Source: Sideroxydans sp. (GTDB taxonomy: Bacteria > Pseudomonadota > Gammaproteobacteria > Burkholderiales > Gallionellaceae). Taken from it: DNA of 64,000 nt. Below are positions 3,132 through 48,267 of this stretch, piece by piece. How positions within the stretch are numbered: position 1 is the first letter of the stretch; each line of letters starts with the position of its first letter. The notes under the pieces are model-generated. The model made no database searches and was not told the origin of the DNA. It saw nothing but the letters and a program-made list of their open reading frames with translations. The translations under genes and the position numbers were made by a program. Where the stretch lies: contig JAQTTU010000010.1 of NCBI GenBank assembly GCA_028710605.1, forward strand, positions 62,001-126,000, written 5' to 3'.

Positions 3132-3761
3132 TTAGGAACGACCGTAATTTTCTTCGCGCAGGGTGCGAGGCGTGATCTCGCGCGGCTCAATGGTGACCGG
3201 CTCGTAAATCACGCGCTTCTGCGCAGCGTCGTAACGCATTTCGACATGACCGGACAGCGGGAAGTCTTTGCGGAACGGATTGCCGACAAAGCCGTAATCG
3301 GTAAGCAGGCGGCGCAGATCGGGATGCCCGATAAAGATAATGCCGTACAGATCGAACGCCTCGCGCTCGTACCAGTTGGCCGAAGACCATATTTCCGCGA
3401 CAGAATTCAATACGGGATTTTCATCATCTTGCGCGAACACGCGCACGCGCAAACGCATGTTATGCGACACCGAAAGCAGATGATAGACGACGGCAAAGCG
3501 CGCGCCTTCGCGCGGCGCATCGGGCAAATACTTGCCGTCCTCACTCGTTTCGCTGCCGTAAGTGGAGTAGTCGATGCCGCAGACATCAATCAGCTCTTCA
3601 AAACGCAAATCGGCATCGTCGCGCAGGCGGGTAAAGACGGAGAGCATGTCGCTCGCGTTCACCACCAGCGTCAGTTCACCCAAGCGTTCTTCCAGGCTCA
3701 CCACTTTGCCTGAAAGAGCTTTACTCAAATTTGCGGACAGTATGTTCAGGTTGGTCGTCAT
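3132..3761 (-). CDS. nuoC: NADH-quinone oxidoreductase subunit C (30 kDa)
   Basis: This 209-residue subunit of the peripheral arm contains the family block ERExxDxxGIxFxGHPDLRR at about residues 131-151. It sits between nuoB and nuoD in the conserved A-B-C-D order. The last residues ([13 protein letters not shown]) run past the core domain, as is common in betaproteobacteria. Confidence 0.96.
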
Positions 3762-3768
3762 GGTCGGC

Positions 3769-4248
3769 CTATCGCGCGATGGTGTTGGTACGCTTGATCT
3801 TGTTCTGCAACTGGATGATGCCGTATATCAACGCCTCGGCGGTCGGCGGGCAACCGGGCACGTAAATATCGACTGGAACAATGCGGTCGCAGCCGCGTAC
3901 CACCGAATAGGAATAATGGTAATAGCCGCCGCCGTTCGCGCAGGAACCCATGGAAATCACAAAACGCGGCTCGGCCATCTGGTCATAAACCTTGCGCAAG
4001 GCCGGTGCCATCTTGTTGCACAATGTTCCCGCTACAATCATCAAATCCGATTGCCTTGGACTCGGGCGAAAAACCTCCGCTCCAAATCGGGACAAGTCGT
4101 AACGAGGTGTCACCGCATGTATCATCTCGACCGCGCAGCAAGCCAGACCGAAGGTCATGGGCCACAGCGAACCGGTACGCACATAGTTGATTACCGTGTC
4201 GGCAGAAGTGGTGACAAACCCCTTCTCCAGAATGCCTTCTATTCCCAT
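3769..4248 (-). CDS. nuoB: NADH-quinone oxidoreductase subunit B (20 kDa, cluster N2)
   Basis: NuoB carries the terminal [4Fe-4S] cluster N2, which reduces quinone. The ligands are visible at Cys37-Cys38 (tandem), Cys103 and Cys133. The open frame extends upstream, but the start at [10 protein letters not shown] (4248) gives the standard 159 residues and overlaps the nuoA end by ten bases. An earlier ATG would place 37 extra residues inside the nuoA sequence. Confidence 0.96.
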
Positions 4249-4595
4249 TCCAAAGCCCCCTTCATCCATTCGTAGATAAAGCCCACCACAAGGATGGCCA
4301 GAAAGACCATCATGGAAACAAAACCGAAGGTACCTATCTCTTTGAGAACGATCGCCCAAGGGAAAAGGAAGGCGATCTCAAGATCGAACAGGATAAACAG
4401 GATGGCGACCAGATAGAAACGCACATCGAACTTCATGCGCGCATCTTCGAACGCTTCGAAGCCGCATTCGTAAGGAGAGAGTTTTTTGTCGTCGGGGCGG
4501 TTAGGCGCAATCAGCTTGCCCAACACCAAAGGCAATACGCCAATCACAAGTGCGATGGCAATAAATATCAGCACTGGAAAATAATTTTCCAACAT
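4239..4595 (-). CDS. nuoA: NADH-quinone oxidoreductase subunit A (membrane)
   Basis: This 118-residue inner-membrane subunit is first in the nuo operon. Three hydrophobic segments are visible near residues 5-28, 60-82 and 90-112, with the acidic [12 protein letters not shown] loop between the first two. The 174 bases upstream, back to the tRNA gene, are A+T rich and should hold the operon promoter. No convincing -35/-10 pair could be assigned there. Confidence 0.96.
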
Positions 4596-4769
4596 CTTGA
4601 GTCCCCCTCATCTTAAGGCCCCCGAAGTTTCGGAGCAGTGGATGCTACTCTAGTTTTTTTTGACTGCATTTTGACCTGAGGCTTGCACCCCGGTCTTCTG
4701 ATATTCTAATTCTTATTATTTAATTTTGTAATTCTTAATTCTGAATTTTTTTGTTTTTTTATTTTAATT

Positions 4770-4856
4770 TGGTGCGGGGCAAGGGACTCGAACCCTCACG
4801 TCCTTACGGACACAGCCACCTCAAGGCTGCGCGTCTACCAATTCCGCCAACTCCGC
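4770..4856 (-). tRNA. tRNA-Leu, anticodon GAG
   Basis: The minus strand folds as a class II tRNA with encoded CCA. The anticodon stem CAGCC/GGCTG closes the loop TTGAGGT (anticodon GAG). There is a variable arm TGTCC-GTAA-GGACG and a T arm with TTCGAGT. It starts GCGGAGTTGGCGGAATTGG and ends CCCCGCACCA. Pair 5:68 of the acceptor stem is A-C and 7:66 is U-G. The position between secG and nuoA is conserved in many betaproteobacteria. Confidence 0.95.
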
Positions 4857-4866
4857 ATATTTCTTA

Positions 4867-5214
4867 TTATTTTGGTATTTGTTGCGACTTGGAGTCGCTT
4901 GTTTCATTCGCCGCAGGAGCGGGAGCAGCTTGCGGTTGCAACGTCTGCACATCCACTTTATCCAGCACGCCCTGCACTTTCGCGGGACGCGAATACAAAT
5001 AGGTCAGCGAAAGACTGGTGACAAAAAATACTGTCGCCACCACTGCCGTGCTACGGCTCAGAAAATTTGCCGATCCGCTGGAACCGAACAGACTGCCGGC
5101 AGAACCGGAACCGAACGCAGCGCCCATATCCGCACCTTTGCCGTGCTGGATCAGAACCAAACCGATCAGCACCACCGCAGCCACCACATGTACCACCCAA
5201 ACTATATTTTCCAC
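4867..5214 (-). CDS. secG: Preprotein translocase subunit SecG
   Basis: This 115-residue small membrane subunit of the Sec translocon helps SecYE-SecA export. Two hydrophobic segments (about residues 4-22 and 52-72) flank the conserved cytoplasmic loop with [20 protein letters not shown] Pro/Ala/Gln-rich tail of about 35 residues follows. It lies 34 bases downstream of tpiA in the same direction and ten bases upstream of the tRNA-Leu gene. Confidence 0.95.
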
Positions 5215-5248
5215 ACGCCGCTCCGAAACAAAATCAAATCACTGCCGT

Positions 5249-6010
5249 TTACTTACCCGATTGACCCGCGCGGCAGATCGCGACAAACTCATCCGCAACC
5301 AAAGCTGCCCCACCGATCAAACCGCCATCAATATCCGGCTTGGCGAACAACTCGGCAGCATTCGCCGCCTTCACGCTGCCACCATACAAAATTACCAGAT
5401 TCTCCGCCACCTGCGCATCATGTCCCGCCACGCGCTGGCGAATAAACGCATGTACCGCCTGTGCCTGCTCCGGCGATGCCGTCTTGCCGGTACCTATCGC
5501 CCAGACCGGCTCGTAAGCCAGTACCGCCTGGCGCAATGCCTGCACTCCGGCCAAAGCGATCACCGCATCCAACTGTTCGGCAACCACCATCTCGGTTGCC
5601 CCGCTCTCGCGCTGCTCCAATGTCTCGCCCACACACAGCACGGGAACCAATCCCGCCTTCTGCGCTGCGGCATATTTCTCTGCCACTAAATGACTGTCCT
5701 CGCCGTAAATACTGCGCCGTTCGGAATGACCCACGAGCACATACTTACAACCAAAATCTGCCAACATGGAAGCAGACACCTCACCGGTGTATGCCCCTTT
5801 GTCGAGTTGGTGCACATCCTGTGCGCCCCACTTTACTGCCGAAGCCGACAATTCCTGCTCAAGTTGCGCGAGGTAAGGAAAAGGCGCGCAAACCGCGACA
5901 TCCACAGCGGCCAGTTGCGCCACGCCATTCTTTACTGCCTCCAGCAACAACTCGTTCTGAGCCAGCGAGCCATGCATTTTCCAATTTCCAATTACCAGCT
6001 TGCGACGCAT
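5249..6010 (-). CDS. tpiA: Triosephosphate isomerase
   Basis: This 253-residue TIM-barrel enzyme interconverts dihydroxyacetone phosphate and glyceraldehyde 3-phosphate in glycolysis and gluconeogenesis. Catalytic residues are visible: Lys11 in GNWKMHG, His95 in VGHSERRS and Glu167 in AYEPVWAIGTG. The phosphate-binding end YGGSVKAANA is also present. It is the first gene of a likely tpiA-secG-tRNA-nuo transcription run and diverges from rsuA, sharing a 100-base spacer. Confidence 0.97.
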   Translation of the reverse strand: MRRKLVIGNWKMHGSLAQNELLLEAVKNGVAQLAAVDVAVCAPFPYLAQLEQELSASAVKWGAQDVHQLDKGAYTGEVSASMLADFGCKYVLVGHSERRSIYGEDSHLVAEKYAAAQKAGLVPVLCVGETLEQRESGATEMVVAEQLDAVIALAGVQALRQAVLAYEPVWAIGTGKTASPEQAQAVHAFIRQRVAGHDAQVAENLVILYGGSVKAANAAELFAKPDIDGGLIGGAALVADEFVAICRAGQSGK

Positions 6011-6110
6011 CAGGATTTGTTTCCGACGTTTCAGAAGGCGGCGATACTACCCATGAAAATCCAAATGGTCAATCAAACCGCCAACCGCCTGATTCTGTTA
6101 CAGTCCCGCC

Positions 6111-6827
6111 ATGAGCAAGCAAACATTAGAGCGCATTTTGCAGTCGCAGGGATTCGGTACTCGCAAATGGTGCAGCCAGATAATTGCGGATGGAGAAGTC
6201 GGAATAAACGGCGAAATCGTCACCGATAGCCGCTTAATTCTGGAAACCAGCGGCCTAGAATTCAGCGTGTATGGAGAGCCTTGGCAATATCGCGAGCATG
6301 TATATATCGCGCTGAACAAACCCGCCGACTACGAATGTTCGCGCAAACCCAGCCACCATCCCGGCGTGCTTTCCCTGTTGCCGGAACAGTTTTCCTTGCG
6401 CGATGTGCAGCCCGTTGGACGGCTCGACCACGATACCACCGGACTATTGCTGATGTCCGACGACGGCGCATTCATTCACGCGCAATCCTCGCCCAAGCGC
6501 CACATCCCCAAGGTTTATGTCGCCACCACGCACGATGCGGTCACGCCGCAGCTGGTCGCGCAATTATTGAAAGGCGTGAAGTTGCACGACGAACCCGCGC
6601 CGCTGGCGGCGGTCGTGTGCAACAGGCTGGATGAGCACCAACTGGAGATCGTGCTGGAACAGGGCAAATATCATCAGGTGAAACGCATGCTCGCCGCCGC
6701 AGGCAACCACTGCACGGCGTTGCGCCGCACCGAGATTGGCGGATTAAAGCTGGCTGCGCTGAACCTGGCCGAAGGCGAGTGGCGCTATCTGGATGAGGCG
6801 CAACGGGCGCTATTAACAGCGCCCTGA
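6111..6827 (+). CDS. rsuA: RsuA-family 16S rRNA pseudouridine synthase
   Basis: This 238-residue protein has an N-terminal S4-like RNA-binding region (about 1-60) and a pseudouridine synthase domain. The catalytic aspartate is Asp106 in VGRLDHDTTGLLL. The length and the ALNKPADYECSRKP block match RsuA, which modifies U516 of 16S rRNA, better than RluB/E/F. The stop codon at 6825-6827 is immediately followed by the first base of a palindromic element. Confidence 0.88.
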   Translation: MSKQTLERILQSQGFGTRKWCSQIIADGEVGINGEIVTDSRLILETSGLEFSVYGEPWQYREHVYIALNKPADYECSRKPSHHPGVLSLLPEQFSLRDVQPVGRLDHDTTGLLLMSDDGAFIHAQSSPKRHIPKVYVATTHDAVTPQLVAQLLKGVKLHDEPAPLAAVVCNRLDEHQLEIVLEQGKYHQVKRMLAAAGNHCTALRRTEIGGLKLAALNLAEGEWRYLDEAQRALLTAP

Positions 6828-7010
6828 AGGCCACCTCTAAAAATCCAAATTTGCGAGCATCCGCTGCGCGGATTGCCTGCTTACCCCACTTCGTCGCAAT
6901 ACTGCGTTGCTCGCAAAAAATTGCTCCTTACATATTCAAATATATGCTGCGTCGCAATTTTTTGTTCGCGCCTTGTCTTGCTTAGAACTTTGAATTTTTA
7001 GAGGCAGCCT
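6828..7010. repeat. MITE-like element with terminal inverted repeats
   Basis: The ends 6828-6849 (AGGCCACCTCTAAAAATCCAAA) and 6989-7010 are inverted repeats of 22 bases with three mismatches. The interior has further self-complementary stretches around GCGAGCA, CGTCGCAATACTGCG and AAAAAATTG. There is no coding capacity. It fills almost the whole gap between two convergent genes, so it may serve as their transcription end. Confidence 0.75.
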
Positions 7011-7019
7011 AAAGTTTCA

Positions 7020-7313
7020 TCACACGCAACCGGTCGGCTTGGGCATGCCGCCGTATTTGGTGATCGGCTTCATCGGCCCGGTCATCCACAGATCGAACAC
7101 CTCTTTCTGGTCTTCTTCGATGTATTTGGCAAACTTGCGGATAGGCGGCACCGCGCCATACTGCTCGTAAAACTCGCGCGCCTTCTCAATCTGCTGCCAT
7201 TTCTTCTCGTTCAATTCGTAGCCATCCACCTCGGCCATGGCACGACCGATTTCCGGCGACCAATCACTCATATCAACGAGATACCCATCACCATCACGAT
7301 TTGGAATTTGCAT
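7020..7313 (-). CDS. TusE/DsrC-family sulfur-carrier protein (single C-terminal Cys)
   Basis: This 97-residue protein ends in GGMPKPTGCV, with the near-terminal cysteine (Cys96) that carries persulfide sulfur in the DsrC/TusE/DsvC family. The second cysteine found about ten residues earlier in true dissimilatory DsrC is absent, so a TusE-like or DsrC-related sulfur-relay role is more likely. The start at 7313 is chosen because AAAGGG lies eight bases before that ATG; an in-frame GTG three codons earlier is too close to it. No tus or dsr genes are nearby. Confidence 0.85.
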   Translation of the reverse strand: MQIPNRDGDGYLVDMSDWSPEIGRAMAEVDGYELNEKKWQQIEKAREFYEQYGAVPPIRKFAKYIEEDQKEVFDLWMTGPMKPITKYGGMPKPTGCV

Positions 7314-7396
7314 GATTAACACCCTTTCTTGTCTGAAGAACTGGTGTACATTTAACCCCTGCCGAGCGTTTTAGTCAACTATTAAAAGTATTTTAG

Positions 7397-8701
7397 TCAA
7401 CTTATTTTTACAGCGCCATTTTGGCGGCAATACGTCTCGCGAATGAACAGCGTGGCAACCAATCCCAGCAACGAAAAACCCAGCATAATGGCGATGCCAG
7501 CGCGATAGTCGCTCAATCCGAGCGGCGCATTGCCGGAGGCTGCATGCGCACGGTCTATCGCCCAACCAACCAGCGGCTGCATGATCGCCGTGCCGAGAAA
7601 AGCGCCGACATTCACCACGCTGGTCGCCATGCCGGACAGTGCGGGCGGATTCACTTCTTTGGCGCACGACCAACTCAACGTAAAGCTGGGCGCAGACAAG
7701 CCCATCAGCAGAAACAGCGCGTAACCCGCAACACCATCCAGCGACCAACCGAACGCCATCGGCAACCAGCACAGGCAATAACCCAGCGCGCCCGCGATCA
7801 TCACCGGTTTGCGCCGCCCGAGGCGATCCGACAGCGCACCGATGAACAACGCGCCGACCGCGAATCCCGCCAGCAACAAGGTGGTGTGATTGGTGGCGGC
7901 AGCTCTATCCATGCCGTAACCATCGCGCAAAAACGGCACCGCCCACAAACCGCCGAAGGCAAACAGCGAACCGGCAATGCCCATATTCACCCACAGCCCC
8001 GGCCACGTGGCGCGGTTCTTCATCACGATCAACAGTCCGTCGTACCAATGCCCCTGATGCGGCGGATGCGCCGCTTTGCCATCCAACTCGCGCAAACTGG
8101 GCAAATCCACCTCGCCCGGATGATTGCGGACCAGCCACCATGAAAGCGCCGCCAATAGCAAAGAGAACAAGCCCACCGCCACGAATACCGTGCGCCACGA
8201 AACAAAGCCCAGCGCCCAAGCCAAGGGTGCAGCCGCCAGCAGCGAACCCGCATTGCCGATCAAAATCGTGATGCCGGTCACCGTGGCGAAATGCCGATCA
8301 TGAAACCAACTCGCATTCAGCTTGAGCATCGAAATGAACATCACCGACACCCCCAGCCCGACCAACAAGCGACCAACCGACGCGACGGCCAGCGTATCGG
8401 CCACGCCGAACAACAGCGAACCAATACCGCCGACCACCCCGCCAATCGCCACCACCCGCCGCGCGCCCAGCGTATCCACCAGCACCCCGGTGGGAATCTG
8501 CATCACCGTGTAAACGTAGAAATACGTCGCCGCCAACCCGCCCAATGCCGCCGCGCTGGCATGAAATGTCTGCTGCAAATCGGACGAAATCGCCGCCGGG
8601 GCGAAGCGATGGAAGAATGACAACACGTAAGCCAGACCGACAATGACGAAGGCCGTCCAGCGCAGGCGGAGGAGTTGATTGGATTGATGGGTGTTCAGCA
8701 T
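7397..8701 (-). CDS. Major facilitator superfamily transporter
   Basis: This 434-residue protein has about twelve hydrophobic segments and the MFS loop motif in the form GVLVDTLGARR after helix 2, with GALSDRLGRRKP in the second half. It is an inner-membrane secondary transporter; the substrate cannot be read from the sequence. The start at 8701 gives a normal cytoplasmic N-terminus. The open frame runs 25 codons further upstream, but that part lacks membrane character. It ends just beyond the TusE-like gene's 5' side and shares no operon partner. Confidence 0.85.
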   Translation of the reverse strand: MLNTHQSNQLLRLRWTAFVIVGLAYVLSFFHRFAPAAISSDLQQTFHASAAALGGLAATYFYVYTVMQIPTGVLVDTLGARRVVAIGGVVGGIGSLLFGVADTLAVASVGRLLVGLGVSVMFISMLKLNASWFHDRHFATVTGITILIGNAGSLLAAAPLAWALGFVSWRTVFVAVGLFSLLLAALSWWLVRNHPGEVDLPSLRELDGKAAHPPHQGHWYDGLLIVMKNRATWPGLWVNMGIAGSLFAFGGLWAVPFLRDGYGMDRAAATNHTTLLLAGFAVGALFIGALSDRLGRRKPVMIAGALGYCLCWLPMAFGWSLDGVAGYALFLLMGLSAPSFTLSWSCAKEVNPPALSGMATSVVNVGAFLGTAIMQPLVGWAIDRAHAASGNAPLGLSDYRAGIAIMLGFSLLGLVATLFIRETYCRQNGAVKIS

Positions 8702-8835
8702 GGATAAATCGTTTCGAGCGGGATAAATGTGCTCCGCATTATCGCATCCAGAACACGTTGGACTGCCAATCCTCAATGCCCATCATCCGAAACAAATTCC
8801 TTTCCCTTGCATTTATTGTTGCTACAATAATGCGC

Positions 8836-9105
8836 ATGGAAATCGCCTATGACTCCGCCAAAGACATTGCCAACCAAGCCAAGCACGGCGTTTCGCTGGC
8901 ATTGGCTGCTGAGCTGGAATGGGACACACTGTGGGCGAAACCGGATGCTCGCCGCAACTACGGCGAAGAACGCTGGATCGGCTACGTCATATTGGAGAGA
9001 CGGTTGTACTGTGTGGTTTTCACGGACCGCGACGAACAGCGCCGCATCATCAGCCTGCGCAAGGCCAACACAAGAGAGGTGAATAACTATGCCGCAAACA
9101 ATTAA
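8836..9105 (+). CDS. brnT: BrnT-family toxin
   Basis: This 89-residue RelE-fold ribonuclease-type toxin has the family pattern: MEIAYDSAKDIANQAKHGVS at the start, then WIGYVILERRLYCVVFTDRD and a final RRIISLRKANTRE. It overlaps the following brnA by 17 bases, the usual toxin-first order of type II BrnTA modules. An ATG six bases earlier (8830) is an alternative start. TACAAT at 8823-8828 may be a -10 element, in which case the leader is very short. Confidence 0.88.
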   Translation: MEIAYDSAKDIANQAKHGVSLALAAELEWDTLWAKPDARRNYGEERWIGYVILERRLYCVVFTDRDEQRRIISLRKANTREVNNYAANN

Positions 9106-9391
9106 ATCTCACACCGGGCGCACCCTCATCCTGCCGACCCCGGAAGAAGATGTAGCGATCAGCGCCGGGATTGCCGCCGATCCCGACACGCATGAGCTGA
9201 CAGTTGCTGAATTCGCGCAACTGAAACCCATCCCCCAACGCGGCCGCCCCGCATCCGCCAATCCCAAAGTGCATACCGGATTGCGTCTGGACGCGGAAGT
9301 ACTGGATGCATTCAAGGCAGGTGGTCGTGGCTGGCAAACGCGCATCAACGAAGCGCTGAAAGAATGGCTGAAGAACCACCACACCGCTTGA
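9089..9391 (+). CDS. brnA: BrnA-family antitoxin
   Basis: This 100-residue antitoxin has an N-terminal toxin-binding region and a C-terminal ribbon-helix-helix-like DNA-binding region: GRPASANPKVHTGLRLDAEV near residues 51-70, then GWQTRINEALKEWL. This is the BrnA signature; BrnA neutralises BrnT and represses the operon. It overlaps brnT. Confidence 0.88.
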   Translation: MPQTIKSHTGRTLILPTPEEDVAISAGIAADPDTHELTVAEFAQLKPIPQRGRPASANPKVHTGLRLDAEVLDAFKAGGRGWQTRINEALKEWLKNHHTA

Positions 9392-9453
9392 TTCCGGCCA
9401 GCGTTCGATAAGCCGTCATCAACCGAAATGATCCTGCCGTATCAGACTCCTAC

Positions 9454-9524
9454 CTGAAGATGCCCGTCAATAGGCGATCTGCATCATGCGTCGCGTGGAG
9501 AATGAGTATTGACGGGCATCTACA
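9454..9524. repeat. Dispersed repeat, GATGCCCGTCAATAGGCGATC type
   Basis: GAAGATGCCCGTCAATAGGC begins one arm, and TATTGACGGGCATCTACAG at 9506-9524 is its imperfect inverted partner. A second partial copy (GGAGATGCCCGTCAATACTC) lies at 9653-9672. About ten relatives occur elsewhere in the window. The stretch 9392-9686 holds no gene. Confidence 0.75.
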
Positions 9525-9540
9525 GACAGGCGGGTAATCA

Positions 9541-9620
9541 ATGTAGGGCGCAATCGTTATTGCGCCGGATGTTTTGAACTCGCACATGCGGCGCAATGCC
9601 CGTTGGTTATTGCGCCCTAC
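9541..9620. repeat. Dispersed repeat, TGTAGGGCGCAATCGTTATTGC type
   Basis: TGTAGGGCGCAATCG at the left and GTTGGTTATTGCGCCCTAC at the right form inverted arms around GGATGTTTTGAACTCGCACA. A half copy occurs at 10531-10566, and related copies lie at 30177-30211 and 62263-62346. There is no coding capacity. Confidence 0.7.
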
Positions 9621-9686
9621 GCGGGCTTCCAAAACAAAACGTTACATGCCCGGAGATGCCCGTCAATACTCACTCCCCATGCAGTC

Positions 9687-9740
9687 TTGATATTGCACAC
9701 CCATCGGAATAGACTAGTCATCTGACTAGTTATAAAGAGG
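9687..9740 (+). promoter_or_regulatory. Promoter and palindromic operator of the phd/PIN toxin-antitoxin operon
   Basis: TTGATA (9687-9692), a 17-base spacer and TAGACT (9710-9715) make a plausible sigma-70 promoter. The perfect inverted repeat ACTAGTCA-TC-TGACTAGT (9713-9730) overlaps the -10. This is the position expected for autorepression by the Phd/YefM antitoxin with its toxin. A ribosome-binding AAGAGG follows at 9735-9740, seven bases before the ATG. Confidence 0.7.
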
Positions 9741-9747
9741 TGAAATC

Positions 9748-10002
9748 ATGAACGCATGGCCTGTACAAGATGCAAAATCCCGTTTCAGTGAATTGCTGGA
9801 AGCCTGCATCAACGGCGGGCCGCAACTAGTCACGCGGCGCGGCGCGGAAACTGCCGTGCTTGTACCCATCGCAGAATGGAAGCGAATGAACAACGCCGCG
9901 CGACCTTCGCTGAAGTCATTGCTGCTAACAGATTCCGGGCGGGTCGATTTTGAAATTCCACCGCGCGGTGCGGCCAAGCGTCGTTCGGCAATTACCGGCT
10001 AA
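9748..10002 (+). CDS. Phd/YefM-family antitoxin
   Basis: This 84-residue protein starts MNAWPVQDAKSRFSELLEAC and continues VTRRGAETAVLVPIAEWKRM, the Phd/YefM fold: an N-terminal DNA-binding dimer and a C-terminal toxin-binding tail. It precedes a PIN-domain gene by eight bases, forming a type II toxin-antitoxin operon preceded by a palindromic operator. Confidence 0.9.
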   Translation: MNAWPVQDAKSRFSELLEACINGGPQLVTRRGAETAVLVPIAEWKRMNNAARPSLKSLLLTDSGRVDFEIPPRGAAKRRSAITG

Positions 10003-10010
10003 GGCGCAAC

Positions 10011-10415
10011 ATGTATCTACTCGACACCAATGTCGTCTCCGAACTGCGCAAAATTCGCCCCCACGGCGCAGTGGTTGCGTGGCTTGAAACACTCGCCGAT
10101 GAAGATATTCACCTCAGCGCCGTAACGCTGGGCGAAATACAGGCTGGCATCGAATTAACGCGAGAACAGGATGCCGTCAAAGCGGCTGAAATTGAAGCCT
10201 GGGCAGATCAGGTCGCCGCCACCTACAACATGCTCTCCATGGATGCGACGACCTTTCGTATTTGGGCAAAACTGATGCACAGGCAATCAGACACCGTGTA
10301 TGAAGACGCGATGATAGCCGCCACCGCAATCGTCCATCACCTGACCGTCGTCACCCGAAATGTCCGGGATTTTGAACGCTTCAACGTACCGCTGTTCAAT
10401 CCGTTCGGCGACTAG
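10011..10415 (+). CDS. PIN-domain toxin (VapC/FitB-like ribonuclease)
   Basis: This 134-residue PIN nuclease has conserved acidic residues: Asp5 in LLDTNVVSEL, Glu in TLGEIQAG, Asp in YEDAMIAATA and the final VTRNVRDFERFNVPLFNPF. That ending resembles the FitB/VapC subgroup that pairs with Phd-type antitoxins. It would cleave RNA when released from the antitoxin encoded eight bases upstream. A 31-base perfect hairpin starts 25 bases after the stop. Confidence 0.9.
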   Translation: MYLLDTNVVSELRKIRPHGAVVAWLETLADEDIHLSAVTLGEIQAGIELTREQDAVKAAEIEAWADQVAATYNMLSMDATTFRIWAKLMHRQSDTVYEDAMIAATAIVHHLTVVTRNVRDFERFNVPLFNPFGD

Positions 10416-10439
10416 TTTTTTCGAATTCCGGTAAAGCCA

Positions 10440-10519
10440 CTGCCTGTAGATGCCCGCCAATAGGCGATCTACACGCGGCGCATGATGCAGATCGCCTATT
10501 GGCGGGCATCTACAGGCAG
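10440..10519. repeat. 31-bp perfect inverted repeat (same family as the CCCGTCAATAGG repeat)
   Basis: Bases 10440-10470 and 10489-10519 are perfect reverse complements separated by 18 bases. The arm begins CTGCCTGTAGATGCCCGCCA. It is the most symmetrical member of the dispersed family. It could end transcription of the toxin operon, although no T-run follows. Confidence 0.85.
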
Positions 10520-10574
10520 GTGGATAAATATGTAGGGCGCAATCGTTATTGCGCCGGATGTTTTGAATGAAGAG

Positions 10575-11051
10575 TTAATCTTCTCCGTCAAGAAGCGGAT
10601 ACAAAAGCAAGAGAAGTTGAGAATGAACATCGCCGAGAGCGAGCGTTACTGGATGGCCATTCAACACGGAGCGCAGGCCTGGAGTCTTGTCTCTGTGTTC
10701 ATTAACAAATTCATTAAAATCCGCAACCTTGTGCTCAAACCCAACAGGATTTAAGTTGTGAGCAAGCTTATTTCGAATACTGTTTAACTTTTTCAGCGCG
10801 TCCCACAGCCAAGATGGTACGCGGTCGTAAAACATTGCCTCAGCCAAACAAATGCATTGGTGCGTTTCTAGCCGCGCGTCTTTGAGAGCCATTGGCTTAA
10901 TCAAGGCCTGATCCACAAGCTGCCGCAATAACTCCTCAATCAATAAGTGTCCTTTGAGAATGAGCAACGTCAAATCGTCTGCGGGCGGCAAATGCTCAAA
11001 GTACCTTTCCACGGCCTCAAAAAACATCGGGTTTATTCGTAAAGTAGCCAT
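10575..11051 (-). CDS. HEPN-like domain protein, uncharacterised
   Basis: This 158-residue helical protein contains IRNKLAHNL near residue 92, an Arg-x4-His motif of the kind that forms the ribonuclease site of HEPN domains. The opening (about 1-50) is rich in Leu and Glu (LLILKGHLLIEELLRQLV). HEPN proteins often act in toxin-antitoxin or defence systems, and two toxin-antitoxin pairs lie just upstream, but no nucleotidyltransferase (MNT) partner is present. Base composition is more A+T rich than its neighbours, suggesting acquisition. Confidence 0.6.
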   Translation of the reverse strand: MATLRINPMFFEAVERYFEHLPPADDLTLLILKGHLLIEELLRQLVDQALIKPMALKDARLETHQCICLAEAMFYDRVPSWLWDALKKLNSIRNKLAHNLNPVGFEHKVADFNEFVNEHRDKTPGLRSVLNGHPVTLALGDVHSQLLLLLYPLLDGED

Positions 11052-41883: not shown

Positions 41884-43137
41884 ATGGTGAAAAGAAACGC
41901 GTTCTACGCACAATCCGGCGGCGTAACCGCCGTCATCAATGCTTCAGCCTGCGGGGTCATCGAGACCGCGCGCAAACACAAAGATAAAATCGGCAAAGTC
42001 TTTGCCGGACGCAACGGCATCATAGGTGCACTGACCGAAGACTTGATCGACACCTCAAAAGAATCCGCCAAAGCCATCGCTTCGCTGCGCCACACCCCTT
42101 CCGGCGCATTCGGCTCATGCCGCTTCAAACTCAAGTCGCTGGATCATAACCAGCGCGAATACGCGCGTTTGATCGAAGTTTTCAAAGCACACAACATCGG
42201 CTACTTTTTCTACAACGGCGGCGGCGATTCAGCCGACACCTGTTACAAAGTCTCGCAGCTTTCCGAAAAAATGGGCTATCCGGTACAGGCCATCCATGTG
42301 CCTAAAACAGTGGATAACGATTTGCCGATCACCGATTGCTGCCCCGGCTTCGGCTCGGTCGCCAAATACATCGCCGTCTCCCTGCTCGAAGCCAGCTTCG
42401 ATGTGCGCTCCATGGCCAAGACCTCGACCAAGGTATTTGTGCTGGAAGTCATGGGACGACATGCGGGCTGGATCGCCGCTGCGGGCGGCCTAGTAGAAGA
42501 GCAAGGCATCCCGGTGGTCATCCTGTTCCCCGAGATTGAGTTCGACCAGAAAAAATTCCTCGCCAAAGTCGATGCCATGGTCAAGAAACACGGCTATTGC
42601 AGCGTGGTGGTATCGGAAGGCTGCCACCACCCGGATGGCAAATTCCTCGCCGAACAGGGCACGCGCGATGCTTTCGGTCATGCCCAGTTGGGCGGCGCTG
42701 CGCCGGTGGTCGCCAACATGGTGAAGGAAGCCTTCGGTTACAAATTCCATTGGGCGGTGGCCGATTATCTGCAACGCGCCGCGCGCCATATCGCCTCCAA
42801 AACCGATGTCGAGCAAGCCTACGCGCTGGGCAAAGCCGCCGTCGATCTGGCGCTCAAAGGCCAGAACGCGGTGATGCCCACCGTGCAGCGCGTTTCCGAC
42901 AAACCGTACAAATGGAAAGTCGGCGTAGCGCCGCTGTCCAAAGTCGCCAACGTGGAGAAATTCATGCCGCGCAATTTCATCACGGCTGACGGATACGGCA
43001 TTACCGCCAAGTGCCGCACTTATCTCGCACCGCTCATCAAGGGTGAAGACTACCCGCCTTTCAAAGACGGGCTGCCACAATATGTACAGTTGAAAAATGT
43101 AGCCGTTGCAAAGAAGTTGGAGGAGTTCAAGATTTAA
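41884..43137 (+). CDS. pfp: Pyrophosphate-dependent 6-phosphofructokinase
   Basis: This 417-residue enzyme uses pyrophosphate instead of ATP and works reversibly in glycolysis or gluconeogenesis. [20 protein letters not shown] opens the protein, [14 protein letters not shown] matches the PPi-PFK GGDD-type loop, and [19 protein letters not shown] and [14 protein letters not shown] are also typical. The start at 41884 has GGGAG-type sequence upstream. The next gene is a proton-pumping pyrophosphatase, 58 bases away. Confidence 0.94.
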
Positions 43138-43195
43138 ATTTATTTTTTATAACATGCCGCTCCGTGAGGGGCGGTTTTTACTTGAGGAGAAGAAC

Positions 43196-45241
43196 ATGGC
43201 AGGTGGCTTGGGGTTTGCACTCTTATGTGCGATTGCAGCAATACTGTATGGCGTAATTTCGAGTAAGTGGATATTGGGTTTATCGACCGGCAGCGAAAAG
43301 ATGCAACAAATTGCTGCCGCAGTTCAGGAAGGCGCTTCCGCCTATTTGAAACGACAATATACCGCCATCGCTTGGGTCGGCGCTGCCTTGTTCGTGGCAA
43401 TCTTTATCGCGCTCGGCTGGCAGACCGCCATCGGTTTTGCCATCGGCGCTTTGCTCTCCGGCCTGACAGGTTTCATCGGCATGAATGTCTCGGTTCGCGC
43501 CAACGTGCGCACCGCTGAAGCCGCCAAGCAAGGCCTCAATGCGGCACTGAATGTCGCGTTCAAGGGCGGCGCGATCACCGGTATGTTGGTGGTTGGTTTG
43601 GGTCTGCTGGGTGTCGCGGGTTATTACCTCATCCTCACCGGCATGGGCGAAACCACAACACAAGCCACGCACGCCCTGGTGGGATTGGGCTTCGGCGGCT
43701 CGCTGATCTCCATCTTCGCCCGTCTCGGCGGCGGCATTTTCACCAAGGGTGCTGACGTGGGTGCCGACCTTGTCGGTAAAGTCGAAGCCGGTATCCCCGA
43801 GGATGACCCGCGCAATCCGGCGGTGATCGCCGACAACGTGGGCGACAACGTCGGTGACTGCGCAGGTATGGCGGCCGACTTGTTCGAAACCTACGCGGTG
43901 ACCATCATCGCCACCATGGTGCTGGGCGGCTTGATGATCTCGGGCGACTCGCCCAATGCGGTAATTTATCCGCTCGTGCTGGGAGGCGTTTCCATCATCG
44001 CCTCCATCGTCGGCACATATTTCGTGAACGCTCGCGAAGGCGGCAAGATCATGAATGCCCTGTATCGCGGCCTGACTGTTTCTGCCGTTCTGGCGCTTGT
44101 CGCGTTCTATCCGGTGACCAAGTGGGTGCTCGGCGATGGCGTAATGATTGGCGGAGCGCTGGTATCGTCGATGAATCTGTATCTGGCCTCCCTGATCGGC
44201 CTCGCGCTGACCGCTGCCATGGTGTGGATCACCGAGTACTACACCGCCACCGAGTTTTCTCCAGTGCGCCACATCGCACAAGCCTCCACCACCGGTCACG
44301 GCACCAACGTCATCGCCGGTCTGGGCGTGTCGATGAAAGCCACGGCCGCACCGGTACTCGCAGTGTGTCTGGCGATTTATGCCGCTTACGCATTGGGCGG
44401 CGCACACGGCGGTTTGTACACCATCGCCATTGCTGCAACCTCCATGCTGTCCATGGCGGGCATCATCGTGGCGCTCGACGCTTACGGCCCGATCACCGAC
44501 AACGCGGGCGGTATCGCCGAAATGGCCGGTCTGGATGAATCCATCCGCAACATCACCGACCCGCTGGATGCCGTGGGCAACACCACCAAAGCCGTCACCA
44601 AAGGCTACGCCATCGGCTCCGCCGGTCTGGCCGCACTGGTGCTGTTCGCCGACTACACCCACGCGCTGTCCACCAACCACCCCGGCATGTTGTTCGACTT
44701 GTCCGACCACATGGTCATCATCGGCCTGTTCATCGGCGGCATGGTGCCCTACCTGTTCGCCGCAATGGGCATGGAAGCCGTTGGCCGTGCTGCGGGTAGC
44801 GTGGTGGTTGAAGTGCGCCGCCAGTTCAAGGAAATCCCCGGCATCATGGAAGGCACAGGCAAACCGGAATACGGCACTTGCGTCGATATGCTGACCAAAG
44901 CCGCGATCAAGGAAATGATCGTTCCGTCGCTGTTGCCCGTTGCCGTACCCGTGATCGTCGGCCTAATCCTCGGCCCGGTCGCGCTGGGCGGCGTGCTGGT
45001 CGGCACTATCGTGACCGGCATCTTCGTCGCCATCTCCATGACCACCGGCGGCGGTGCATGGGATAACGCGAAGAAATACATCGAAGAAGGCAACTTCGGC
45101 GGCAAAGGTTCGGAAGCCCACAAGGCCGCCGTCACTGGCGACACCGTAGGCGACCCCTACAAGGACACCGCCGGTCCCGCCGTGAACCCGCTGATCAAGA
45201 TCATCAACATCGTCGCGCTGATGATTGTGCCGTTGCTGTAA
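43196..45241 (+). CDS. hppA: Proton-translocating pyrophosphatase, K+-independent type
   Basis: This 681-residue membrane pump with about 16 hydrophobic segments couples pyrophosphate hydrolysis (or synthesis) to proton movement. The active site is visible in [20 protein letters not shown] followed by [19 protein letters not shown] and the C-terminal [20 protein letters not shown]. Lys465 in [17 protein letters not shown] marks the potassium-independent class. The start at 43196 follows GAGGAG at seven to eight bases. It is probably co-transcribed with pfp. Confidence 0.96.
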
Positions 45242-45263
45242 TTTTTTAGAACATTGCAGTATC

Positions 45264-45296
45264 AAAAGGCCGACTTAACCGTCGGCCTTTTTGTTT
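45264..45296 (+). terminator. Intrinsic terminator after hppA
   Basis: AAAAGGCCGAC (45264-45274) pairs with GTCGGCCTTTTT (45281-45292) around a six-base loop, followed by G and TTTT, 23 bases after the stop. Confidence 0.92.
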
Positions 45297-45302
45297 TGTG
45301 AA

Positions 45303-45377
45303 ACATACCTCACGGAGATGCCCGTCAATAGGTAATCTGCATAAGATGTGCTAGGTAGCCTATTGACGGGGCTTGTA
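45303..45377. repeat. Dispersed repeat, CCCGTCAATAGG type
   Basis: TACCTCACGGAGATGCCCGTCAATAGGTAATCTGCATAAGA and TAGCCTATTGACGGGGCTTGTAGA are the two inverted arms. It lies at the left border of the A+T-rich island. Confidence 0.75.
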
Positions 45378-45383
45378 GATCAT

Positions 45384-45547
45384 ATGCGCAAGCATCCACT
45401 TCTATTGAGGGTTATGGATATGACAGAAGAAAGCCGGAAAACGAGTGATGACAAACAGAACTGATAGCTTATCGTATGCTGGCTAATATAGATTGGCAGA
45501 CCACTTACGAATATCTACGTCTTGGACGTTGGTGGCTAGGAAATTAA
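45384..45547 (+). other. Two short open frames that may be one disrupted small gene or peptide
   Basis: ATG at 45384 opens a 26-residue frame (MRKHPLLLRVMDMTEESRKT..., stop at 45464). A shifted frame then gives a 23-residue peptide from ATG 45476 beginning MLANIDWQTTYEYLRLGRWW (stop at 45547). Read with a one-base slip near 45458, the two would join as one protein. No convincing ribosome-binding site is seen. The rest of 45548-45852 is A+T rich and non-coding, with TATATATC and ATATATACATATATA runs. Confidence 0.3.
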
Positions 45548-45852
45548 TTTCAAAAATTCTCTTGATCAAATCGAATCAAGCGCCCCTTGATTTGGAGGAT
45601 AGAGAACAGACATAGATCGATATATATCTGAATCTTAAAGACATATATACATATATAGGCTGAATTAAATATTGACGCATCAAGGATACTCACATAGATT
45701 GCTGTCCGAGCATTGGCAGAAATTGCAAATTTATAATCCTGATTGCGGCCTTAGGTGACTGCGGATGTGATCTTTGCTCACGATGAAAATTGTTCGAACT
45801 GTACTTCCGTTTTTCTGACGAAGTTGTTACTCATTATCGAAAGGGAGGCATG

Positions 45853-46467
45853 ATGCAACAAGAACTCTATATCCGTAGCGAAGGAATTTTTTTTGCCGAA
45901 GTTGGAGCTGATGTGTACATGACTTTGGAAGCGCGCGATACTGTCATGTGTATAAATCGAGCAGCGTTTGCACTAATCGAAAACTTGGATGGTTTTACAA
46001 ACCACGATGACGTATGCGCTGAACTTGCTCGTGTCGGGGAAATAAAAACTCCGAATGCATTGAAAGCAGGGAATGCAGTAATCAAGAGTCTCGTGGAAAA
46101 TAGATTCGTTAAGGCCGTTAAAACAAACACGACCAAAGGTGTTGTTTGCCTTGGTTCTCTGAGTGGCTACATTGCCGCAAAGCAGACATTAAACCGCCAA
46201 CCAGAACCAGCTGATTTTACGCCGGGCATTCGAAATATTTGGACCAACATAAGCGCCACGGGGGGATTGTTTATTAACTCGGGCGATATTAGCGTGATTG
46301 TTCCCAATGTTACGGATGGTCCCATCAAGACATGCCCCGCACATACTTGCACAATCCCTGCGGGACTTTTTACTCCAGATACTATTATTCGCTGGTTCGA
46401 CAAATCTTGGGAGAAGAACTTCAAGAACTTCCGAAAATTCTCTGTTGGCAAAGTAACTAAAGGTTAA
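45853..46467 (+). CDS. PqqD-like (RRE) domain protein of a radical-SAM cassette
   Basis: A 204-residue soluble protein. The first 90 residues resemble PqqD-type peptide-recognition domains: YIRSEGIFFAEVGADVYMTL, then CINRAAFALIENLDGFTNHD and AVIKSLVENRFVKAV. The remaining 110 residues are unrecognised and include GDISVIVPNVTD and a KTCPAHTC cysteine pair. AAGGGAGG precedes the ATG (ATG at 45850 is an alternative). Codon use is A+T rich compared with the neighbours. It ends eight bases before a radical SAM gene. A role in peptide or substrate delivery is inferred only. Confidence 0.65.
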   Translation: MQQELYIRSEGIFFAEVGADVYMTLEARDTVMCINRAAFALIENLDGFTNHDDVCAELARVGEIKTPNALKAGNAVIKSLVENRFVKAVKTNTTKGVVCLGSLSGYIAAKQTLNRQPEPADFTPGIRNIWTNISATGGLFINSGDISVIVPNVTDGPIKTCPAHTCTIPAGLFTPDTIIRWFDKSWEKNFKNFRKFSVGKVTKG

Positions 46468-46475
46468 TTCACACC

Positions 46476-47555
46476 ATGGCTGAAAATGCAATTTTCGGCT
46501 TCACCTGTTTGGGAATTTCTGTGACGATGCAGTGCCCATTACAATGCCGGCACTGCATTACAGAATCAGGACCAGAAGTTTCTCGACAGATGACGGAAGA
46601 CGAAGCTCTACACTACATCCGCACTGCGCATCATGCAATTAATCACATCAGTTTTACCGGTGGCGAGCCTCTTCTTGACCAGAAAAGGTTACTTCATCTG
46701 ATCGAGGCAGCAAAAGCCGAGGGTTATGTAGTTTCAGTAATGACAAGCGGACATTGGGCTAGCCATCATTCTCATGCTCACGAAATACTGAATCGCTTAA
46801 AAACTGCCGGTCTTGACATGCTGGGGGTCAGCCTTGATCGATACCATCTTGACTTTATCGATGTTTCTCGATGCCGAAATATCGCGGAAGCTTGCGAGAA
46901 ATTGGAGATTCCGATTGCAGTTCGTGTGATCGCTAAGCCTGATGATAATTTTGCGGATGAAGTGAAGGAACTACTCGCTCATACCAAGGCTAAAGTGCAC
47001 GCTCATTTTCCTGTTAAACTCGGGCGCGCCGAGGAACTTGAGATGTCTTCATTCCGCCACTCAAAAATGCCAACCGACAAATGTGAAACCGTTACTGCAT
47101 TGGATATTGAGCCTGGAGGAAATATATATGCATGTTGCGGCCCGGGTCCCTACATGAAGAAAGGAAACCCGCTTATTCTTGGAAATGCTCTCAGTGAAAA
47201 TTTGTTCGACATTCTTCAGGAAGCACTTTCCAATCCATTCATGAAGGTCATCAACACATTGGGGCCCAAAGGATTACTGGATGCCTTACAGGCAAACGGT
47301 TTTGGATATCTTGTGCCTATCCGTGAGTCTTACACTGACACGTGCCAATTATGCTTGGACATTTGCAACAACACTCAAGCGATTTCAGCTTTACAAACTA
47401 TCTTTGAAAATCCAGAAGTACAGCGAACGCAGAACGCAATGCAATTCGCCAAGATGGTTGGTGAGTTCCTAGAGATTCGCCGCTTTCGGCAAGTATCGGA
47501 TTGCCAAGATGCAGATAAACTGGCGGATAAATTAGAGAAGTGTCCAGCAGATTAG
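46476..47555 (+). CDS. Radical SAM protein with SPASM-like C-terminus
   Basis: This 359-residue protein has the radical SAM cluster motif CxxxCxxC at Cys20, Cys24 and Cys27 (MQCPLQCRHC), then ISFTGGEPLLD. Further cysteines occur in DKCETVTALDIEPGGNIYAC and CGPGP and in DTCQLCLDIC near residues 290-298, consistent with auxiliary iron-sulfur clusters of SPASM/Twitch enzymes that modify peptides. It follows a PqqD-like gene, the usual pairing in peptide-modification operons, but no precursor, protease or exporter is obvious. A+T-rich composition suggests transfer. Confidence 0.8.
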   Translation: MAENAIFGFTCLGISVTMQCPLQCRHCITESGPEVSRQMTEDEALHYIRTAHHAINHISFTGGEPLLDQKRLLHLIEAAKAEGYVVSVMTSGHWASHHSHAHEILNRLKTAGLDMLGVSLDRYHLDFIDVSRCRNIAEACEKLEIPIAVRVIAKPDDNFADEVKELLAHTKAKVHAHFPVKLGRAEELEMSSFRHSKMPTDKCETVTALDIEPGGNIYACCGPGPYMKKGNPLILGNALSENLFDILQEALSNPFMKVINTLGPKGLLDALQANGFGYLVPIRESYTDTCQLCLDICNNTQAISALQTIFENPEVQRTQNAMQFAKMVGEFLEIRRFRQVSDCQDADKLADKLEKCPAD

Positions 47556-47718
47556 TGCATCAGCATGGTCAATCCGCATGAGAAAACTATGAGAGGACTC
47601 CTGCGCAATACAACTTAGGGTCAAGTTACTACTTACTACGATTACCCTCCCCTCTTTTTTTGTGACCTCTCAGTGATACAATCCGCGCCTTTCATTTTTC
47701 ACCTAAAGGCAGCGCACC

Positions 47719-48267
47719 ATGAGTTTGAACAAAGTCCCCTCCGGCAAAGACCTCCCCCACGACTTCAACGTCATCATCGAAATCCCGATGCACGGCGAGC
47801 CGGTCAAGTACGAAGTGGATAAGGAATCCGGCGCGATTTTCGTGGATCGCTTCATGAACACCGCGATGCACTATCCCTGCAACTACGGCTATATCCCGCA
47901 CACTTTGTCAGACGACGGCGATCCGGTGGATGTGCTGGTGATTACCCCGGTGCCGCTGAACAGCGGCGTGGTGGTGCGTTGCCGTCCGCTGTGCGTGTTG
48001 AAGATGGAAGATGAATCCGGTTTCGATGCCAAGGTGCTGGCCGTGCCGGTAGACAAGCTCTCCACGCTGTATCGCGGACTGAAGAGCCACACCGAATTGC
48101 CGGAAATCGTGCTGAAACAAATCGAACATTTCTTCGCGCATTACAAAGATCTGGAACCCAACAAGTGGGTGAAGATCGGCGGCTGGGAAGGCATCGAATC
48201 GGCCTGCAAGGAAATTATGGCCGGCGTGGAAAATTACCAGAACAGCAGCGACAAACCGCAGTTTTAG
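47719..48267 (+). CDS. ppa: Inorganic pyrophosphatase (soluble, family I)
   Basis: This 182-residue cytosolic enzyme hydrolyses pyrophosphate to phosphate. [40 protein letters not shown] with the metal-binding DxxDPxD set, and KVLAVPVDK are family I signatures. It has its own start region with a possible -10 (TACAAT near 47677) and lies beyond the A+T-rich island from hppA and pfp. Confidence 0.96.

Follow-up and report, generated by a model that had tools for sequence, protein, structure and literature searches.

A rare two-gene cassette between hppA and ppa of Sideroxydans pairs an EpeE-like radical SAM enzyme with an RRE-like partner protein

Results

Two coupled genes in an A+T-rich insert

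We analysed a 64,000-nucleotide stretch of contig JAQTTU010000010.1 from Sideroxydans sp. (assembly GCA_028710605.1, positions 62,001 to 126,000), hereafter the window, whose own numbering is used throughout. Some 2.4 kb of inserted A+T-rich DNA, flanked by hppA (stop at 45241) and ppa (start at 47719), carries two coupled genes on the plus strand: P0001, whose product begins with a domain resembling PqqD and other recognition elements (RREs) of ribosomally synthesised and post-translationally modified peptides (RiPPs), and P0002, a radical S-adenosylmethionine (SAM) enzyme. The ATG of P0001 at 45853 is preceded by GGAGG, with a second ATG at 45850, and its stop lies 8 bases before the start of P0002. 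The features of the pair are the following, "second copy" meaning the homologous cassette described below.

45853..46467, plus strand: P0001, 204 residues, PqqD/RRE-like domain with a conserved C-terminal tail (open reading frame; 71% identical homologue in the second copy)
45898..46113, plus strand: PqqD/RRE-like region, residues 16-87 (hhalign to 27 PqqD sequences)
46282..46428, plus strand: invariant block, residues 144-192, proposed substrate segment (49-residue run identical in the second copy)
46333..46350, plus strand: CPAHTC, residues 161-166, within the invariant block (translation)
46384..46437, plus strand: possible cationic amphipathic helix, residues 178-195 (hydrophobic moment, post hoc)
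46476..47555, plus strand: P0002, 359 residues, EpeE/YydG-like radical SAM enzyme (Pfam, NCBIfam, PDB sequence and fold matches)
46533..46556, plus strand: CxxxCxxC (C20, C24, C27), motif of the SAM-binding 4Fe-4S cluster (sequence)
47133..47138, plus strand: C220-C221, with C221 aligned to EpeE Cys223 (sequence alignment, 18-sequence comparison)
47343..47354, plus strand: C290xxC293, probable ligands of an auxiliary cluster (invariant in 10 sequences; CxxC in 18 of 18)

The enzyme resembles the peptide epimerase EpeE

Judged from its sequence, P0002 is probably a distant peptide epimerase of the EpeE/YydG type. Pfam assigns it to Radical_SAM (E 1e-15), and the top of its 76 NCBIfam matches is TIGR04078, the YydG peptide epimerase (E 1.2e-32, residues 12-307), which alone among the best 25 of these covers nearly the whole protein. 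A sequence search of the PDB with E up to 0.001 returned EpeE/YydG as the sole match (E 2e-18, residues 12-305). When a structure model built from seven sequences (mean predicted local distance difference score, pLDDT, 74.9; predicted template-modelling score, pTM, 0.76) was compared with known folds, EpeE chains took the top nine places (E 2.9e-17 to 6.6e-16; template-modelling score 0.64-0.67 by query) at 20-22% identity in the fold alignments, followed by BlsE at E 4e-8 and then by viperins. The other family searches were less specific: PADLOC had no match for P0001 and, for P0002, three viperin-type models on the radical SAM core only, while PHROGs had none for P0001 and, for P0002, seven families of radical SAM or similar proteins, one of them of unknown function.

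The cysteines, which include a further C203, agree with this assignment. C221, the second cysteine of 'YACCGP', falls in the column that holds Cys in the EpeE structures 8ai1 and 8ai6 and Ala in 8ai3, an entry titled 'C223A mutant', and PMC8326336 reports Cys223 as the proposed hydrogen donor of EpeE, whose substitution is said there to cost the activity or to lead to breakage of the peptide. The CC pair and the later CxxC are present in all 18 EpeE-like sequences compared, those of the window and the second copy included, and CxxxCxxC in 17, the last (L086) as annotated starting downstream of the motif; such sharing is partly expected because the sequences were collected by similarity. At the level of primary structure, P0002 thus has the CxxxCxxC, the auxiliary-cluster cysteines and a cysteine in the hydrogen-donor position beside a cluster ligand.

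The partner has a divergent RRE-like N-terminus and an invariant tail

Whole P0001 matches no family in Pfam, NCBIfam, PADLOC or PHROGs. Its N-terminus is taken as RRE-like, though divergent, on the strength of a profile comparison: hhalign aligned a two-sequence P0001 profile with a PqqD profile (27 fragments from 30 fetched loci) in 72 gap-free columns covering residues 16-87, at a single-comparison E of 2.2e-5. None of 200 column shuffles reached the score, and the P0001 tail gave no signal. Across the whole protein the profile scored 30.2 against PqqD and 13.9 against B2, the leader peptidase of lasso peptide clusters. The tail of 109 residues matches no known family, and a PDB search with it found nothing better than E 2.3. 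It contains the top 18-residue hydrophobic moment of P0001, which for residues 177-194 was reached by 75 of 10000 shuffles in a post hoc test, and most of this amphipathic stretch, like CPAHTC, lies inside the invariant block.

The block was delimited by comparing the two copies. Identity amounts to 142 of 200 aligned residues in P0001 and 259 of 347 in P0002, yet residues 144-192 of P0001, the best-conserved stretch of the gene pair, are 49 consecutive identities, a run reached by 0 of 20,000 shuffles; the longest identical run in P0002, of 24 residues, was reached by 1220 of 20,000. Within residues 145-192, 28 of 48 codons differ synonymously, and fourfold sites differ there at 16 of 21 positions, the corresponding counts being 33 of 45 for the remainder of P0001 and 82 of 124 for P0002. 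As the protein block is invariant while its synonymous sites are as diverged as elsewhere, selection on the protein is indicated rather than recent exchange. A strictly kept C-terminus beside a drifting remainder would be the pattern of a bioactive core, but also that of a binding surface.

A second copy at an unrelated site

Scanning 84,980 species genomes for P0001 with exact 8-residue patterns turned up 46 stretches, and a single relative, in a metagenome-assembled genome (MAG) of Rhodocyclales (L012). The same two genes lie there after a gene that we take to be aceA, at a site unrelated to hppA and ppa. The 3' end of aceA and its terminator are repeated beyond the cassette (5527-5773 and 7914-8160; 247 bases, 97%), with an IS66 transposase fragment between the repeats at about 7700-7880, an arrangement that points to entry of the cassette through recombination of a circle or of transferred DNA. 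A blastn comparison of window positions 45101-47900 with L012 positions 5301-8300 found similarity confined to 45852-47493, that is, to the two genes; the mobile unit is therefore the gene pair, and the two cassettes have no separate precursor, protease or exporter in common. An extra 33-base match in the same comparison (E 0.30) is put down to chance.

The cassette is rare. Among 399 genomes of the order, P0001 was found only in the window itself, besides a match in G398 (E 8.7e-4) that was discarded for its two internal stops. No close copy of P0002 beyond those of the window and L012 occurs in 399 genomes of the order, 398 of the phylum and 200 of the MAG's relatives, nor in 150 of the family and 270 of the class, samples that overlap; distant relatives turned up in 4, 1 and 3 genomes of the phylum, family and class samples. 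Plasmids and phages searched with P0001 gave no match, and scans of IMG/VR with P0002, A1 and A2 (two patterns each for A1 and A2) yielded none that was confirmed. Matches to the P0001 tail in IMG/VR (L080) and in plasmids (H15) were out of frame and ascribed to chance.

The segment between hppA and ppa is an insertion

The surroundings of the cassette comprise four features, of which the two genes serve as context only; the names hppA and ppa come from an earlier note on this DNA and are, we presume, correct.

43106..45241, plus strand: hppA, membrane pyrophosphatase, left neighbour (open reading frame)
45264..45291, plus strand: terminator hairpin of hppA (stem found computationally)
45302..45375, no strand assigned: palindromic dispersed repeat resembling repetitive extragenic palindromic (REP) elements, at the left edge of the insert (matches in the genome; hairpin z -3.92)
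47719..48267, plus strand: ppa, soluble pyrophosphatase, right neighbour (open reading frame, genus comparison)

By comparison with the genus, the segment between the two pyrophosphatase genes is an insertion. The end of hppA was matched in 26 of 31 genomes of the genus, the last 100 residues being 94-99% identical in 23 relatives and 90% and 89% in two truncated matches, and the 25 loci fetched comprise that of the window and 24 others (L018-L041). In four of the 24 (L024, L028, L031 and L036) ppa follows about 100 bases behind hppA. In the other 20 the fetched stretch showed no ppa, several of these stretches being short, and since the next genes differ among the nine of the 20 that were inspected, the neighbourhood downstream of hppA is variable. 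Similarity to the relatives stops on the left near 45296-45302 and resumes on the right at 47673. Whereas the aceA end is repeated beyond the second copy, a search on the right side of this insert turned up no second hppA end. Measured in 500-base windows (starts 45250-47250), the G+C content of the insert is 0.39-0.47, while hppA has 0.50-0.63 and the DNA from the start of ppa rightward 0.52-0.60.

No precursor, protease or exporter gene appears among the open reading frames of the insert. Upstream of P0001 (45300-45850) the longest frame encodes 47 residues on the minus strand, and the gap between P0002 and ppa holds only a 30-residue minus-strand frame and frames overlapping ppa; an Rfam search with E up to 1 gave two matches, both judged to be chance. 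The earlier note, written from the letters alone, had described an A+T-richer segment inserted between ppa and an hppA with its terminator, with two genes encoding CPAHTC, CxxxCxxC and extra C-terminal cysteines and with no evident precursor, protease or exporter; all of this was borne out, the last point both inside the insert and in what it shares with the second copy, and so was the placing of the enzyme with peptide-modifying radical SAM enzymes.

The REP-like repeat at the left edge (CCCGTCAATAGG...CCTATTGACGGG) has 46 further matches in its own genome, from 40 scored of 221 candidates, some of the matches being the two strands of one palindrome, and it may be unrelated to the cassette.

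Relatives of the enzyme commonly follow a precursor-like gene

We surveyed the neighbours of 16 further EpeE-like loci, leaving out two of ten plasmid records (H2, H6) and all four Listeria phage records (H11-H14) and judging "precursor-like" by eye except for annotated YydF. In 10 of the 16, the gene directly upstream of the enzyme resembles a RiPP precursor, and this is the slot that P0001 fills. These upstream proteins have Ala/Ser-rich repeats in three loci (L005, L006, L008), are 76 residues long in a fourth (L007), are annotated as YydF epipeptide in two (L082, L083) and have Asn-rich repeats in Thermus (L085) and Collinsella (L086); the remaining two loci are from Halocatena (L009) and Streptomyces (L084). 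Two Macrococcus records have a YydF-type precursor, a membrane peptidase and an ABC (ATP-binding cassette) exporter beside the enzyme. Elsewhere a precursor-like protein lies directly downstream (L090), and none was recognised by eye in L010, L011, L016 and L089.

The nearest relative outside the second copy, at 33% identity, belongs to a lasso-type cluster (L088/L091) with cyclase, B2, PqqD and ABC exporter genes and a 57-residue precursor-like frame two genes before the enzyme. A tree of 18 enzymes groups window and second copy with support 100/100; this relative joins them next at 93/93, under the program's 95/80 mark and with a long-branch flag, and several deep forks are weak.

Some of these loci deserve mention in their own right. 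The lasso-type cluster in which an EpeE-like enzyme is embedded (L091, G1229:C1:2384000-2398000, positions 3321-10849) comprises B2, cyclase, precursor-like frame, HPr-kinase-like gene, PqqD, nucleotidyltransferase and ABC exporter, and a radical-epimerised lasso peptide is a possible product. On the Thermus aquaticus plasmid pTA14 (L085 2045-2950) and in Collinsella (L086 2231-2956), long precursor-like genes with alternating Asn-rich tails (NVNANVHYNVNTNLNV...) stand directly before an EpeE-like enzyme and shortly before a methyltransferase gene, a pattern that to us recalls cores of the polytheonamide type. Large ATPase-type genes adjoin EpeE-like enzymes on a Halocatena plasmid (L009 5193-8441), where the gene is annotated as a tetratricopeptide repeat (TPR) protein, and in G1096 (L095 1256-2917), where by eye it has a LuxR-like start; a regulatory or defence link is possible. 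Finally, a protein of about 290-300 residues with a few C-terminal cysteines follows, by eye, the enzyme in a four-locus subgroup (L005 2523-3422, L006 578-1468, L008 up to 3526, where the frame is listed as longer, and L011 4999-5859); the copy in L005 has no Pfam match.

Discussion

In sum, the cassette comprises an EpeE-like enzyme that keeps the decisive cysteine position, encoded behind a partner with an RRE-like N-terminus and an invariant tail, and the unit recurs at two unrelated sites. To the whole of the reading that we favour, a mobile two-gene RiPP-like cassette with P0002 as an EpeE-type epimerase and P0001 as its partner and most likely substrate, we assign a probability of roughly 0.45. 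Its parts differ in strength: that the chemistry is epimerisation is likely, and that the P0001 tail is the substrate is an evenly balanced proposition. The latter draws on P0001 being the sole companion of the enzyme in both cassettes, on its filling a frequent substrate slot and on its tail being the best conserved part. P0002 would cleave SAM and take the alpha-hydrogen from an L-residue, and C221 would return a hydrogen from the opposite face, giving a D-residue. The RRE-like domain would dock P0001 so that the C-terminal segment 144-192 is modified, the "leader" being an RRE fold fused to its "core", and release or action might depend on host functions. The strict form of the idea, a self-recognising substrate with N-terminal RRE and C-terminal core, epimerised in the manner of EpeE with nothing else in the cluster, we put forward tentatively.

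Several observations weigh against this reading. P0002 scores 113.6 bits with TIGR04078, below the curated cut-off of 300, and EpeE Asp210, the residue mutated in 8ai6, has no clear counterpart: the ungapped alignment places A208 there, and D210 is reached with a two-residue gap. The RRE-like assignment has its own difficulties. PF05402 (PqqD) matches the excised N-termini (first 96 residues) at E 0.071 for P0001 and 0.065 for the second copy, or 13.9 and 14.0 bits, below the cut-off of 23.4; the N-terminus of the second copy matches the winged-helix model PF21782 better (E 0.015); the P0001 profile, searched against the PDB with E up to 10, returned no PqqD chain, the best match having E 0.92; BLASTP aligned nothing between P0001 and the PqqD protein of L088; and a structure model of P0001 from two sequences was discarded at pLDDT 31. 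Only two sequences of P0001 are known, and its tail is unlike the repetitive or hydrophobic cores of the relatives. PqqD-like proteins normally serve a separate precursor, and the L088/L091 cluster has just such an arrangement, a discrete PqqD protein with a precursor-like frame of its own. EpeE and the proteusin epimerases, moreover, are reported to act without a leader (PMC8326336), so docking may be dispensable.

Set beside known systems, the cassette shares with the epipeptide system epeXEPAB the enzyme's fold, its CxxxCxxC, its CC pair with the hydrogen-donor position, its C-terminal CxxC and a partner gene directly upstream; it differs in the low identity and sub-threshold TIGR04078 score of P0002, in lacking a YydF-type 50-residue precursor, membrane peptidase and ABC exporter, and in a partner that bears an RRE-like domain. 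RREs are described as discrete proteins or as fusions to enzymes and other domains in PMC12710340, PMC7470986, PMC8326336, PMC8429565 and PMC9266682, and our literature search, which covered portions of open-licence papers, found none fused to its own core. P0001 matches the RREs of PqqD and lasso B1 proteins colinearly, whereas it joins this domain to the tail instead of standing alone or residing on an enzyme. In borosins of types I-III, too, the precursor is a single chain that starts with a large folded domain and ends in the core (PMC8429565), but there the fused domain is the methyltransferase, whereas in the cassette a recognition domain would be fused and the enzyme encoded separately. 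Lasso cluster L091 has an EpeE-like enzyme together with a PqqD-type protein, yet within a full cluster of lasso-type cyclase, B2 peptidase, kinase-like gene, exporter and separate precursor-like frame; the same search found no lasso cluster with a radical SAM epimerase, MslH, the lasso epimerase, being described as a metallophosphatase-family protein (PMC9266682). The separate short precursor gene of a canonical RRE-dependent RiPP cluster is missing from the DNA common to both cassettes.

The foremost alternative, which we regard as a serious possibility short of an even chance, is that P0001 is an adaptor: its RRE would bind a precursor or host protein encoded elsewhere, its tail would be a folded domain, perhaps clamping P0002 or binding a metal (through CxxHxC) or a cluster, and P0002 would act in trans. 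Such is the normal role of PqqD/RRE proteins (PMC7470986), and the lasso B1 protein MslB1 is reported to enhance the epimerase MslH (PMC9266682). The related enzyme in L091 adjoins a discrete PqqD protein of a lasso cluster, an invariant 49-residue block would suit an interaction surface too, and C161, H164 and C166 are conserved. Against an adaptor stand the lack of any third gene or flanking DNA common to the two cassettes and the precursor-like protein that occupies the directly upstream slot in so many relatives.

It is unlikely that the same self-contained pair makes a thioether, P0002 joining Cys161 or Cys166 to another residue as in sactipeptides or ranthipeptides. The position of CPAHTC within the invariant block would suit such a linkage, relatives of P0002 have weak NCBIfam matches to sactipeptide maturases, and the thioether-forming radical SAM enzyme 5wgg is among the weaker fold matches (E 8.5e-8); the E values of the EpeE chains, however, are eight to nine orders of magnitude below that of 5wgg, and all 18 sequences compared keep the EpeE-type CC pair. 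The emphasis that the earlier note laid on CPAHTC pointed to cysteine cross-links, and the closest characterised chemistry proves to be epimerisation instead. Its other proposals fared unevenly. A PqqD-like N-terminus is upheld by the profile comparison and lacks both a whole-protein match and a PqqD chain in the PDB search; the leader-domain/core fusion gains from the invariant C-terminal residues and the precursor slot, with modification of the tail unproved; the neighbourhood survey that it called for revealed the recurrent upstream gene in relatives and no third gene common to the cassettes. The non-peptide pathway that would have spoken against a peptide substrate does not recur beside the relatives, by eye, left neighbours that look like cobalamin genes being confined to L007/L094.

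A decaying or selfish remnant without function is very improbable: the cassette is rare and A+T-rich, and an IS66 fragment lies near the second copy, but both genes are open in both copies and purifying selection has been strong, 148 of the 259 identical P0002 codons differing synonymously. That P0001 is a divergent lasso-type B protein, an RRE fused to a transglutaminase-like B2 leader peptidase, was rejected as scarcely credible, for although its length equals that of fused B proteins, CPAHTC contains an AH motif and the nearest enzyme relative sits in a lasso cluster, its scores with a nine-sequence B2 profile are no better than those of shuffles (residues 96-204, 9.7, reached by 76 of 100; whole P0001, 13.9, by 27 of 100; residues 118-204, 13.4, by 19 of 100) and Transglut_core3 has no match at E up to 10.

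Returning to P0001 as the substrate of P0002, an RRE fused to its own target would, if true, reverse the usual order and reduce an epimerase system to a minimum of two genes, one handle and one target. It could account for RRE/radical SAM pairs that seem to have no precursor, and it would give a means of introducing D-residues into the tail of a protein of choice. If cleavage does not follow, an entire intracellular protein bearing D-residues would result, spread as a two-gene mobile cassette. In the loci collected here, EpeE-like enzymes have precursor-like genes as neighbours in proteobacteria, a haloarchaeon, Thermus, Collinsella and Streptomyces; one also lies inside a lasso cluster.

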